From positions 1 through 22,792 of the IMG/VR virus record IMGVR_UViG_3300022842_000068: a DNA stretch of 22,792 nt. One strand, 5' to 3'. This stretch comes from a virus. Below, piece after piece: positions 4,096-15,989 of this stretch. The position numbers were made by a program, and so were the translations under genes. Each line of letters starts with the position of its first letter. The stretch's first letter is position 1. Below the pieces are notes generated by a model, which saw nothing but the letters and a program-made list of their open reading frames with translations, ran no database searches and had not been told where the DNA came from.

Positions 4096-4638
4096 ATGAA
4101 AAATTTTGGAAGAAACACATTGGCGACTTTAAAGGCTAATTTTTTTGGTCTTAATACTTCTAGTATAACCGAGCCAGTGGTAGCCGAACCAGTGGTAGCC
4201 GAGCCAATTGTAGCCGAGCCAATTGCAGCCGAGCCAATTGCAGCCGACCCAATGGTAGCCGAGCCAATTGTAGCCGAGCCAATTGCAGCCGAGCCAGTGG
4301 CAGCCGAGCCAATTACAGCCGAGCCAATTGCAGCCGAGCCAATTGCAGCCGAGCCAATTGTAGCCGAACCAGTTGTAGCCGAACCAATTGCAGCCGAACC
4401 AGTGGTAGCCCAGTTCGCTCAAATTTCTGTATCTGATCTTAATCAATTAAGAACAGATGCTGGAAAATGGAAATCTAATGAAAGCGAGTTCAAGGTATTG
4501 AAGGATTGGCACTCTAATATGGTAAGTGCCGGTGCTGGTCTACAGATAGATGCTGCCGATGCTAATGTGACGTCTTTTAAAGTAAGTAAGGCTACTCAAA
4601 TAGCCATAGATGCTGCTGATAAAAGAAAGAAAAAATAA
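4096..4638 (+). CDS. Putative scaffold or capsid-assembly protein with pentapeptide tandem repeat
   Basis: This 180-residue protein lies between the maturation protease and the major capsid protein, the usual place of a scaffold. Residues 1-25 are basic (MKNFGRNTLATLKANFFGLN). Residues ~26-105 consist of 16 pentapeptides of the form E-P-[IV]-[VAT]-A, with one variant DPMVA. The remainder is polar and helix-prone, with KWKSNESEFKVL and AADANV, and ends in KRKKK. The proline-acid repeats would form an extended, negatively charged rod. The scaffold role is inferred from position and composition, not homology. The gene begins 16 bases after the protease stop. Confidence 0.6.
   Translation: MKNFGRNTLATLKANFFGLNTSSITEPVVAEPVVAEPIVAEPIAAEPIAADPMVAEPIVAEPIAAEPVAAEPITAEPIAAEPIAAEPIVAEPVVAEPIAAEPVVAQFAQISVSDLNQLRTDAGKWKSNESEFKVLKDWHSNMVSAGAGLQIDAADANVTSFKVSKATQIAIDAADKRKKK
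4171..4410 (+). repeat. 16 tandem copies of a 15-bp unit
   Basis: Exactly 240 bases of imperfect GAGCCAATTGYAGCC-type units encode the EPxxA pentapeptides. Most variation is between GTG and ATT (V/I), GTA and GCA (V/A) and GAG and GAA. Copies preserve frame, so length can change by slippage without breaking the protein. It is not a CRISPR array, since there are no spacers. Confidence 0.95.
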
Positions 4639-6861: not shown

Positions 6862-6872
6862 GTAAGTTTGAG

Positions 6873-7273
6873 ATGCAGTTAATAATTACCTTATATGGGT
6901 TTTCTAGGATACACCACTACGTCAAGTTATTGTCGGTAGGCAAAGGGATGAAAGTGCCCTTTTTGGTGTACCCTGGTATATTATTGACTGCAAGGACCAA
7001 CCGACATTTTCAATGCCTCATTTGTTTGCAAATACTCCTTGCCTCACTGACAAGCTCGATAACCCTACTGGTTTGCTTGCTTCTTTAAATTGCCATTTGG
7101 CCGAATGCGAATTACCCGACCATTATGATGAACCGGACGAATACGTGGAGATGGTCACTTATAAAGACACTATTCAGGACTTCGTTGATTTAATTCAAAA
7201 ACTACTGAGCAATGATAGACTTGCCAAAACTGCAGCTCCAGATAAAGAAGGAGCAAATGGAAAAATACCTTAG
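6873..7273 (+). pseudogene. Small gene with an apparent one-base frameshift
   Basis: From ATG 6873 the frame reads MQLIITLYGFSR and then loses protein character. From 6908 the -1 frame, closed upstream by TAG at 6905-6907, reads DTPLRQVIVGRQRDESALFG, then VPWYIIDCKDQPTF, then continues past ATG 7013 to the stop at 7273. That second frame looks like genuine protein well upstream of its first ATG, at 7013. Joining the two after AGG (6906-6908) would give a continuous protein of about 133 residues, as if one G were missing from AGG(G)ATAC. No canonical slippery heptamer is visible. If the gene is intact, the conservative product is the 86-residue ORF from 7013, which has an acidic, tyrosine-containing middle (DHYDEPDEYVEM). 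Function is unknown. Confidence 0.5.
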
Positions 7274-8387: not shown

Positions 8388-8403
8388 AATGGCAATTGCC
8401 ATT
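8388..8403. promoter_or_regulatory. Palindrome AATGGCAATTGCCATT, first of three GGCAATTGCC sites
   Basis: This perfect 16-bp palindrome lies in the 68-bp gap before the ParB-fold gene and is preceded by CCTTGAA. The copy at 13635-13652 has the same context, and a partial copy lies at 15813. All three are intergenic. It could be an operator or a protein-binding site, for instance for the ParB-like protein or the terminase; this is inference. Confidence 0.5.
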
Positions 8404-8414
8404 CTTCTTATTTG

Positions 8415-8440
8415 TTGCAGTATTTAATTATTAACTGCAA
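8415..8440 (+). promoter_or_regulatory. Inverted repeat just upstream of the ParB-fold gene
   Basis: TTGCAGT (8415-8421) and ACTGCAA (8434-8440) are perfect inverted repeats separated by 12 A/T-only bases, ending two bases before the ATG at 8443. The arrangement suggests an operator or a leader hairpin controlling this start. Confidence 0.45.
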
Positions 8441-10024: not shown

Positions 10025-10032
10025 TACCTTTG
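10025..10032 (+). promoter_or_regulatory. TACCTTTG, Bacteroidota-type -7 box
   Basis: This is an exact match to the TAnnTTTG -7 element used by the Bacteroidota primary sigma factor. It lies between a terminator and the gene at 10104, predicting a leader of about 65 bases. No clear TTG -33 box is visible at the usual spacing, so this is a moderate call. Confidence 0.5.
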
Positions 10033-10103
10033 TGATGTTAAAGGCTATAGCTCTTGTCATGGGTATAGCTAATTTTTCATCAAAACGTTAAACAACTTTT
10101 ATT

Positions 10104-10417: not shown

Positions 10418-10447
10418 AAGCCCTCTAAGAATTCAGAGGGCTTTTTT
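10418..10447 (+). terminator. Intrinsic terminator
   Basis: AAGCCCTCT (10418-10426) pairs perfectly with AGAGGGCTT (10435-10443), with loop AAGAATTC, followed by six T residues (10442-10447). It ends the small monocistronic unit at 10104. Confidence 0.9.
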
Positions 10448-10528
10448 ATTGCCAAATCTTCTGATTCTGGCTGCCACATTTACTGCTCTTCTGTTTCTGT
10501 AAATCGCTCATTTTCATGAGATTTCTGA

Positions 10529-10559
10529 TGTAGTTAATTATTCACTTAAACATCAGAAC
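10529..10559 (+). promoter_or_regulatory. Shared upstream element, copy A
   Basis: TGTAGTTAATTAT (10529-10541) is followed after 12 bases by CAGAAC (10554-10559), two bases before the ATG at 10562. The same two-part arrangement precedes the starts at 12104 and 12550. Copies A and B also share GAGATT just upstream. It is probably a promoter or operator for co-regulated genes, with the second half near the ribosome entry site. Confidence 0.55.
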
Positions 10560-10561
10560 AC

Positions 10562-11260
10562 ATGAGAATTCGATTAAAAAATGGGACAAACGCCCCGAAA
10601 AATTCAAGTATTTTTAGATTTTGTAATCGTACCGGCAAGTCGGTAGATGAGTACTATGTATGGGCTAAAGAGTGCGGCCAACGAGCCTCCAATAATTACA
10701 AAGACAGGATGCTTTGTAAGAAATTTGGTCTGGCAGAAATCAGCGAAATTAAAGGTCATGCAGCAGTAAGTGATGACGTGCCTTTTTCATATTCAGATAT
10801 CAACAATTTTCTATTGAATGAAATCCAGAACCCTGCGGAACTGGCTTCTAATTATCTTATGGCCGTGGCCAATAGAGATATTGATGATAGTGTTCCGGGT
10901 TTTATTAATTCCCATTTAAGCCAAACCACCAAACAAAGCTTTGAACGCTTCTGTGATAAGAATAAGCTTTCGGATGTTTCTGCATCTTGGTTTAGTAAAG
11001 ATGGCCTTGAGCTAGATGTTCAGGCTATGGAGATGTCAACCACTTTTGGCCGTGAGATTACAGAGGAAGCTATTGTGGAATATTTGACCACTTACCGCAA
11101 AGGCAAATACAGGTCTTATAATGAATCTCACTTAGAGAAGTTTGAGGCAAGAATGGAAGAGCTCTGTGGCTTCAAAATCACTGAAAAATACGCAATGCAT
11201 CTTGACAACCTCGTTAGAGGCGAAATAGAAGTAATGGCGGATGAAGATGCCCCATTTTAA
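10562..11260 (+). CDS. Unknown accessory protein upstream of the methyltransferase
   Basis: This 232-residue soluble protein is basic at the start (MRIRLKNGTNAPKNSSI) and has an acidic end (EVMADEDAPF). The middle is helical with several aromatic and cysteine residues (DEYYVWAKECGQRASNNYKD). No family is recognised. The gene is preceded by the shared element and separated from the methyltransferase by only two bases, so the two are likely co-transcribed and may act in the same process. The last residues of the form D-x-D-A-P-F are reminiscent of acidic C-termini on phage DNA-metabolism proteins that contact partners, which is only a weak hint. Confidence 0.6.
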   Translation: MRIRLKNGTNAPKNSSIFRFCNRTGKSVDEYYVWAKECGQRASNNYKDRMLCKKFGLAEISEIKGHAAVSDDVPFSYSDINNFLLNEIQNPAELASNYLMAVANRDIDDSVPGFINSHLSQTTKQSFERFCDKNKLSDVSASWFSKDGLELDVQAMEMSTTFGREITEEAIVEYLTTYRKGKYRSYNESHLEKFEARMEELCGFKITEKYAMHLDNLVRGEIEVMADEDAPF

Positions 11261-11262
11261 TT

Positions 11263-12006
11263 GTGGGAAAGCTAACATATGAAGTGCCTGCAGAGTTGAA
11301 AGACTTTGCTGCCACTTTTGATGCTATCTCTTATAGGCATTCAGATTATGGAACGGTGTTTGGCGATTTCCTGGGCTACATCACTGGAGGATTTCTAGTA
11401 GATGGTGATCCTCTACTGGCAGCAGAACTTCAGCGAAAGTACGGAGATGACTACGGCAAGTTCAATGAACTCGTGGTCCATCTTATTAAAGCATATGGTG
11501 TAATGGTGAAGGATGATAATTCTTGGTACGATGGCCTTGGTATTTTCTATGAGATAATCGCCAGTAGGTATAAGTCAAGTGCTTTAGGTCAGTTTTTCAC
11601 ACCTCCGTGTGTTGTTGATTTAATGTCTAAGCTTATCAATCCAATTGAAAGAGAGACGGTCAATGATCCTTGCTGTGGAAGTGGCCGTTTAATTTTAGCT
11701 GCCAAAGTAGTTAACCCGAAACTGTGGGCATACGCGGCGGACGTAGATCCTATTTGTGCAAAAATGACAGCCGTAAATATGGCCATACATGGCTGTAATG
11801 GTGAAGTGGCCTGTATGAATACCTTAACAATGGACTGGCGTTTTGGCTATGTTGTGAATCCATATCTGGGCTTACCTGGTATAAATCCATTCCCTCACTT
11901 GCGGCCAGTCCACTGCTGGGAAGAGTCGCGATTCTATGTGAAAGCACCTGAGTTGAAAGCTGCTGCAGAACTTAAATTAGAGACTGGTCAGTTGGCCTTG
12001 TTTTAG
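11263..12006 (+). CDS. N6-adenine DNA methyltransferase-like protein with degenerate motif IV
   Basis: This 247-residue protein has a GTG start two bases after the previous stop. It carries GQFFTPPCVVDLM (109-121), typical of HsdM-type enzymes, motif I DPCCGSGRL (135-143), and an acidic pair D160/D162 for SAM binding. The catalytic NPPY/F of this class is not present; the nearest match is VVNPYLGL (199-201 NPY), where one proline is missing. It lacks a target-recognition domain of normal type I size. It may be a solitary phage methylase protecting the genome, or a SAM-binding relative that no longer methylates adenine. Confidence 0.7.
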   Translation: MGKLTYEVPAELKDFAATFDAISYRHSDYGTVFGDFLGYITGGFLVDGDPLLAAELQRKYGDDYGKFNELVVHLIKAYGVMVKDDNSWYDGLGIFYEIIASRYKSSALGQFFTPPCVVDLMSKLINPIERETVNDPCCGSGRLILAAKVVNPKLWAYAADVDPICAKMTAVNMAIHGCNGEVACMNTLTMDWRFGYVVNPYLGLPGINPFPHLRPVHCWEESRFYVKAPELKAAAELKLETGQLALF

Positions 12007-12063
12007 ACAAAAAATAATAGGATTATCGCTTTTAATATCCGTTTTGCTGGGAGAGATTACAGA

Positions 12064-12102
12064 TGTAGTTAATCATAAACGTAATCTTTAAAACACCAGA
12101 AC
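12064..12102 (+). promoter_or_regulatory. Shared upstream element, copy B
   Basis: TGTAGTTAATCAT (12064-12076) is followed after 20 bases by CAGAAC (12097-12102), one base before the ATG at 12104. It has the same layout as copies at 10529 and 12519, and shares GAGATT further upstream with copy A. Confidence 0.55.
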
Positions 12103-12103
12103 A

Positions 12104-12283
12104 ATGCAAAAAATCATCTTGACAATCGCGAAAAATGAGAATTCAACTTTCGAAGCCGCAAATGGCCGGTACCAGTTCACGTCAAATAAGGGCGAGTCTG
12201 TACCAGCTTTTAGATTCAGAATTAACAAGCACTTTATGAACTCTGCAAGTACAGCCCAAATCTTCTTTGTGCATGAAAAATAA
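12104..12283 (+). CDS. Small 59-residue protein, unknown
   Basis: A short ORF reads MQKIILTIAKNENSTFEAAN, then contains RYQFTSNKGE and PAFRFRINKHF, and ends FFVHEK. It starts one base after the CAGAAC half of the shared upstream element, which is the best evidence that it is real. Its last 11 bases overlap the next small gene, suggesting coupling. The beta-strand-rich composition suggests a small folded domain. Function is unknown. Confidence 0.6.
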   Translation: MQKIILTIAKNENSTFEAANGRYQFTSNKGESVPAFRFRINKHFMNSASTAQIFFVHEK

Positions 12284-12470
12284 AGCCAAGCACAAAGCCA
12301 AAATCATTGCTCTACTTCCAGAAGTAGAGCAAGTGGCCGTGAAAGCATATTTCAAGAAACACCCGGACAAAGTTTGGGGAGAGCAAAGAAGCTTGCTAAA
12401 AGGTCATTCAGACCTTCCGTTATTTTCAGCTGCATCGGACGAAAAGCAGCAAGACTTATTTGAGCAGTAA
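12273..12470 (+). CDS. Small basic protein, unknown
   Basis: This 65-residue product from ATG 12273 reads MKNKAKHKAKIIALLPEVEQ at its start, then contains KAYFKKHPDKVWGEQ and a C-terminal LPLFSAASDEKQQDLFEQ. A TTG six bases upstream in frame is less likely as a start. The tail LPLF ... DLFEQ resembles short QxLxLF-type clamp-binding or partner peptides found on DNA-metabolism proteins, which would agree with its RadC and RarA-like neighbours; this is inference. A hairpin follows the stop directly. Confidence 0.6.
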   Translation: MKNKAKHKAKIIALLPEVEQVAVKAYFKKHPDKVWGEQRSLLKGHSDLPLFSAASDEKQQDLFEQ

Positions 12471-12474
12471 ACAA

Positions 12475-12498
12475 AAAGCCCAGCGTCAACTGGGCTTT
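12475..12498. terminator. Hairpin between small gene and RadC-like gene
   Basis: AAAGCCCAG (12475-12483) pairs perfectly with CTGGGCTTT (12490-12498) around CGTCAA. The T-tract is short on the + strand and longer on the - strand, so it may act in both directions or only partly terminate. It supports placing the next gene's start downstream at 12550. Confidence 0.6.
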
Positions 12499-12518
12499 AC
12501 TGTTCTTAAAAAATCAAT

Positions 12519-12539
12519 TGTAGTTAATCATCTCAGAAC
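12519..12539 (+). promoter_or_regulatory. Shared upstream element, copy C
   Basis: TGTAGTTAATCAT (12519-12531) is followed after only two bases by CAGAAC (12534-12539), ten bases before the ATG at 12550. The 13-base block is identical to copy B. Confidence 0.55.
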
Positions 12540-15784: not shown

Positions 15785-15812
15785 CTATCTATCTACATTC
15801 TATTTTTTAAAC

Positions 15813-15822
15813 GGCAATTGCC
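15813..15822. promoter_or_regulatory. Third GGCAATTGCC site
   Basis: This ten-base palindrome lies in the gap after terL, with AAAC on its left side as at 13635 but the right arm diverged (CAAT). It is a decayed or half version of the longer palindromes at 8388 and 13635. Confidence 0.45.
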
Positions 15823-15989
15823 CAATCCGTTATAGTGGGGGATTCTATGGGTTTCCTTTCATGATCGTCTTGAATGAGAAAAACGGCTGTAAGCATTTTA
15901 AGGTTAGAATCTTAAATAAATAATTCTTGCATAAATGGCTAAAAAACTTTTGCCCTGTTTGCTGTATTGGCTGTTTTATATCATTGTGT

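Follow-up and report, generated by a model that had tools for sequence, protein, structure and literature searches.

The question raised by this locus is whether a short sequence repeated in front of several gene starts of one phage is a regulatory signal in itself or part of a larger one. To our knowledge, the regulation of Bacteroidota phages has been little described; Bacteroidota hosts use an unusual sigma factor. The stretch analysed here (the window) is the entire 22.8-kb virus record IMGVR_UViG_3300022842_000068 (22,792 nucleotides), which may be a fragment. The motif TGTAGTTAATnAT occurs exactly at positions 10529 (copy A), 12064 (copy B) and 12519 (copy C) of the + strand, just as the first-pass annotation had reported for TGTAGTTAATNAT, and the window holds no other exact match. 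The CAGAAC that it had described behind each copy is likewise present, at 10554, 12097 and 12534, after spacers of 12, 20 and 2 bases, and the weaker copy that it placed at 6874 (TGCAGTTAATAAT, site D) is real; this last 13-mer also lies on the minus strand at 8427.

With up to two mismatches, the motif has eight matches in the window compared to a shuffle mean of 3.7, and 3 of 100 shuffles reach eight. In the window as a whole, three occurrences of a 10-mer are nothing out of the ordinary (100 shuffles hold a mean of 8.95 such 10-mers each). Across the 16 intergenic segments, TGTAGTTAAT and GGCAATTGCC alone are present in three, and some 10-mer was found in three segments in 53 of 2000 shuffles; the 10-mer alone is modestly above chance (p ~ 0.03), a figure that takes neither CAGAAC nor position into account. 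Copies A and B are the two longest, being 77% alike over 44 nt (10518-10561 and 12053-12096).

In order to see the motif in context, relatives of the phage were collected. The window terminase has relatives in 82 of the 390 genomes examined from the order holding a Siphonobacter MAG and, by an alignment query, in the viral contigs L178-L181; a fifth locus (L182) was not counted because its match covered only 58 residues. Single-protein scans of the viral contigs yielded no relatives with the terminase or the portal and one distant locus with the methylase. Gene order is largely kept among the relatives: protease, capsid, ParB-like protein (8443), TAGT glycosyltransferase (9042), 232-aa protein (10562), N6-methylase-like protein (11263), MgsA_C-like protein (13005), small and large terminase, and portal, where the window terminase, capsid, protease and portal are what we take these genes to be from general knowledge and annotated matches. 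Downstream of the protease gene, at 4096-4638, the window also encodes a predicted protein in which near-identical VAEPI/AAEP repeats form a long run.

The 13-mer is not conserved in these relatives. A search of 25 loci (L158-L182) for TGYAGTTAATNAT with at most one mismatch yielded four scattered matches, none at a copy of the conserved element described below. The two-part pattern of motif and CAGAAC was rejected as a widespread signal: it gave 2 matches in the 390 order genomes, compared to 1 on the reversed control, and its 103 stretches in viral contigs look like chance because each stretch listed holds a single match. What the leaders of homologous genes share (several 232-aa proteins, and RadC in L178 and L179) is a block, ATCCGTTYTGYCGGGAGA...TTTACA, which the window has directly before copy B. 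The motif forms the 3' end, specific to the phage, of a longer element; the invariant core of this element lies just upstream and had been overlooked in the first-pass annotation.

Collected from the window and related loci, the block is represented by 35 distinct copies. The element spans about 80 bp and consists of an A-tract, TT, a nearly invariant 18-bp core (ATCCGTTYTGYYGGGAGA), 3-4 nt, TWTAYA, and a leader prone to contain an inverted repeat. Information content over the 35 copies (positions numbered from the first base of the core) marks the A-tract at -26 to -21, TT at -6/-5, positions 0-9 and 12-17, which are nearly invariant except for a pyrimidine at 7, and T at 21; conservation is far higher in the core than in its flanks. 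The copies precede ORFs in the region bounded by the TAGT glycosyltransferase and the small terminase, one to five per prophage locus, and all are on the coding strand. The start codon follows 52-87 nt after the core begins in the 29 rows kept for this measure, after removal of L288 and L304, where no ORF was found, and of L175 9650, L302 4947 and both L305 copies, with a first ATG 29 nt after ATCC. By eye, and unscored, L178, L294 and L161 have a terminator-like hairpin that stops just short of the core. Within positions 24-41, GTAGTY occurs in 8 of the 35 copies; at each of two control places, it occurs in none of the 35. The part most shared inside one prophage relative to other prophages is positions 18-44, where the motif falls: copies within a prophage are 86% alike at positions 18-27, compared to 47% between representatives, and 70% compared to 35% at positions 28-44 (22 within-prophage pairs, the majority supplied by L178 and L179).

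The high-G+C prophages L170-L172 and L176 carry a variant, TTTCTGTA...GGTTCTGTATGAAGA...CTTTACAT, and L173 a further one. A sequence-only model (R1) was built from an alignment of 34 copies, comprising 28 of the 35, window copy B included, and six of the variant group; L176, left out of the alignment, was then found by R1 with an E-value of 5.9e-10.

The element is nearly restricted to these Cytophagales prophages and near-absent from host chromosomes. The strict core was found at 11 sites in 6 of the 390 order genomes, with none on the reversed control. Five of these six genomes have a pair about 1.6 kb apart adjoining a terminase of this phage family; the sixth, G252, has a single copy, and its terminase pieces lie on another contig. 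In viral contigs, the strict pattern gave 15 stretches on 12 contigs, and one genome (IMG 2881096153) has such elements on four viral contigs. An R1 search of the phylum matched 6 of 395 genomes; the sole convincing match, in G013, lies on the L171 contig, itself part of the training set, and the other five were judged chance by eye from the surrounding letters. One 94-base copy from L178 had no blastn match among 50,697 phage records and none among 72,556 plasmid records. L160, L166 and L174 have the 232-aa gene family and no recognised element. Within the literature searched, by four of the element's sequences and by prophage and promoter terms, no description of it was found.

Of the three exact motif copies, only the one at 12064 has the invariant core. 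Copy B is a full element at 12009-12090 on the + strand (R1 52.1 bits, E 1.1e-15, with B itself among the 34 training copies); a PWM built without the window scores it at 51.6 bits, compared to a maximum of 1.9 in 100 shuffles. Its core, ATCCGTTTTGCTGGGAGA (12037-12054), matches that of related prophages exactly, and GAGATTAC (12053-12060) is a putative degenerate -7 box that begins 11 nt before the exact motif (12064-12076). An inverted repeat, AGATTAC/GTAATCT, surrounds the motif (12054-12087), and the 44 nt after the core fold with a z-score of -2.1.

R1 found only B in the window and did not find A, C or D. Copy A (10494-10541, + strand) stands before the 232-aa gene and has no recognisable core; its parts are TTTCTGTA (10494-10501), which the variant carried by L170-L172 and L176 also has, then GAGATTTC (10518-10525), and finally the motif (10529-10541). 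Ten relatives have the element before the same gene family (L158, L161, L163, L169, L175, L178, L181, L300, L301, L302), and we read A as a diverged copy at a conserved place that keeps traces of the element. An inverted repeat, TTCTGATGT/ACATCAGAA, was seen there by eye and left unscored (10523-10558), and a terminator-like hairpin precedes the copy (10418-10443). Copy C (12507-12539), before RadC, has the motif (12519-12531) and CAGAAC (12534-12539), with no core and no matching box, and site D (6863-6886) has TAAGTTTG (6863-6870) followed by TGCAGTTAATAAT (6874-6886); C and D appear to keep only the 3' part of the element, its putative start region. All of these sites are on the + strand, as is site E (10025-10045), where TACCTTTG, a canonical box, is followed by TGATGTTAAAGG, weakly like the motif, before gene 10104.

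The reported position of the motif just before start codons applies to copy C if RadC starts at ATG 12550. Were TTG 12460 the start, the motif would fall within the RadC frame. The likelier start is ATG 12550, since a terminator-like hairpin (12475-12498) lies just before the motif and RadC of L178 starts shortly after its element. Site 6874 has no clear start behind it. The motif is overlapped by ATG 6873, and the frame from ATG 6896 runs for only 14 codons; a coding-like frame begins after a stop at 6905 and contains no ATG until 7013. The small gene at 6873-7273 may be frameshifted or start unusually.

The statement that the motif shows no match to the Bacteroidota TAnnTTTG box needs correcting. 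At site D, the canonical TAAGTTTG, one of only two intergenic TAnnTTTG sequences on the + strand, begins exactly 11 nt before the motif, and box-like octamers stand in the same register in A (GAGATTTC) and B (GAGATTAC); copy C, with AAAAAATC there, does not fit. A search for sigma-70 type promoters found eight in the window, fewer than the shuffle mean of 17.8, and promoters of this type were rejected as an explanation. As described in the available text of two studies, the Bacteroidota sigma-A promoter has a TAHHTTTG -7 box, and transcription starts 4-5 nt after it (PMC6847099, PMC9723704). The 35 copies do not carry this box as such: positions 16-23 read G A H H T T T A/C, so that two of the six conserved bases differ, with G for T-12 and A or C for G-5. 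GAHHTTTA fits the other four (A 35/35; T 27/35, 35/35 and 27/35), and the element further resembles the sigma-A promoter in having TT at the place of -33. The octamer register breaks down in 8 of 35 copies, where 3 nt and not 4 precede TAYA. In the element, the spacer hardly varies and is rich in G+C, whereas that of F. johnsoniae is described with A+T-rich motifs at -18 and -28 (PMC6847099, PMC9723704, in the portions available).

These observations suggest that a family of Cytophagales prophages carries a promoter-leader element in multiple copies, in front of several small operons, and that the motif is the end of this element that lies nearest the start and is specific to the phage. We give this reading a probability of roughly 0.55. 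The element is best read as a promoter that is phage-specific, as are its start region and leader; the first-pass proposal of a phage-specific promoter or operator was in the right area, although the motif it named is not the conserved part. Host RNA polymerase would use the element with the help of a factor that reads the core and is probably phage-encoded. GAHHTTTA at positions 16-23 would then be a degenerate -7 box, with TT at -33, a nearly invariant spacer serving as the site of the trans factor, and a start near position 28, in or just before GTAGTTAAT, so that the motif would be initially transcribed sequence and the shared downstream part would give the operons of one phage the same leader. 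The predicted leader averages 39 nt over 29 rows, similar to the 33 nt reported for F. johnsoniae leaders in the available text of PMC6847099. In the window phage, only B is complete, and D has a canonical sigma-A -7 box in place of the core.

No gene was found in all element-bearing prophages and absent from both element-free ones compared, and individual candidates for the trans factor were set aside. A SymE-like protein (L158:9074-9247) is present in only 4 of 6 element-bearing genomes compared. The 232-aa protein, as an AlphaFold2 model with a pLDDT of 82, had no PDB match at E 0.001 and only weak matches to large viral proteins, and the model gives no pointer to a DNA-binding fold.

The element is compact and recognisable and marks accessory operons (DNA modification, RadC, small ORFs), and so offers a handle to define a prophage regulon, as well as a handle on the factor that reads it and possibly phage-responsive promoters for Cytophagales. 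More tentatively, and in our view rather doubtfully, the elements might form a dedicated class of Bacteroidota phage promoters, in which a spacer core is read by a trans factor while start region and leader co-evolve in each phage, so that the accessory operons of a prophage would obey its own regulator and not the one of a co-resident prophage.

Like T7-type phage promoters, the element closes a long conserved, promoter-like block with an invariant GGGAGA. A T7-type reading was provisionally set aside after a search for the single-subunit RNA polymerase (PF00940), run without a positive control, found no such gene in any of seven element-bearing genomes.

The closest analogue is formed by the start-associated sequences (SAS) and extended SAS (ESAS) of cluster K mycobacteriophages. 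As far as the available text of PMC3203893 describes it, SAS is a 13-bp sequence, GGGATAGGAGCCC, immediately upstream of many gene starts, with its function given as not known, and linked to it are inverted repeats with a variable spacer and a consensus that differs between subclusters. Like SAS, the element is specific to its phages and recurs upstream of several genes in the same phage, and the inverted repeats may have a counterpart in its excess downstream folding, though not in every copy (PMC3203893). Unlike SAS as described there, it has another sequence and occurs in another phylum, and its core begins 52-87 nt before the start; distant phages share this core and differ in the part downstream of it (PMC3203893).

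The downstream folding is evidence for an alternative that we consider unlikely, namely that the element is mainly an RNA leader, in which transcription would start at GGGAGA and the inverted repeat would form an RNA hairpin, with the motif in or near its loop, that regulates translation or stability. Over the 44 nt after the core, folding is stronger than in control leaders (mean z -1.57 in 23 representatives compared to -0.37 in 223 controls, Mann-Whitney p 6e-5), and the stems differ between phages with pairing kept, as in L169 (TTACAGAGTT/AACTCTGTAA), L308 (ATTTACAGAC/GTCTGTAAAT) and L294 (TTTTACAGT/ACTGTAAAA); two copies in L163 have loops of unequal length, which would suit RNA better than a dimeric DNA site. 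This excess folding supports a start at GGGAGA, but not all copies fold: L178 4777 and 8023 and L179 3792 and 7028 have no predicted structure after the core, stems begin at different places among copies, and Rfam gave no match in the window at gathering score. We favour the degenerate -7 box with a start near position 28. L163 also has a third, partial copy of the element (L163:13069-13110, minus strand), which runs into an apparent 21-bp perfect inverted repeat around the motif region, one arm of which looks as if copied from the other.

It is distinctly improbable that the copies are recombination joints or duplicated cassette boundaries, with the motif having no regulatory role of its own. 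Cassettes do differ between phages, since RadC precedes the 232-aa gene in L178 but follows it in the window, and the likeness of copies inside one prophage, which extends beyond the core, may be plain duplication; the conservation of the core far above its flanks, the narrow start distance and the uniform placement on the coding strand argue against joints.

We give still less credence to a translation-initiation signal, which the first-pass annotation had also proposed. Its appeal lies in the position before starts and in CAGAAC, which directly precedes two start codons, among them ATG 12104 (CAGAAC at 12097-12102, + strand). Core and motif, however, lie tens of bases from the start at varying spacing, and in the available text of PMC6847099, Bacteroidota initiation is set by A at -3, -6 and about -12/-13 and by low structure. 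CAGAAC itself looks like part of the translation-start region rather than the second half of one site, because its spacing varies and relatives have CTAAGCA or another, often A-rich, sequence in its place. That the three motif copies are a coincidence, with only B functional as part of the conserved element, seems very improbable: the shuffle frequency of repeated 10-mers and the lack of a core in C and D leave some room for it, but A is 77% like B and sits at a conserved place, CAGAAC follows all three copies, and A, B and D share the 11-nt register.

Other repeats were seen in the window and its relatives. A second conserved noncoding block lies just after the large terminase (window 15800-15840) and consists of TATATTCC, a T-rich part, TGGCAATTGCC (GGCGATCGCC-like in L163, L169 and L175) and CGnTAnAGnGCGGGC; it is present in 13 of 13 aligned sequences (the window, L127, L158, L159, L160, L161, L163, L169, L170, L172, L175, L178, L181) and may be a packaging site or a late promoter. 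The palindrome GGCAATTGCC occurs in three intergenic segments, at 8391, 13639 and 15813; those at 8391 and 13639 both hold CCTTGAAAYGGCAATTGCCRTT, and changes match in both arms. Finally, L166 has its own three-copy leader repeat, of different sequence and also before small operons (L166:11097, 11746, 12635), with CAATTAATCAT in two of the three copies.
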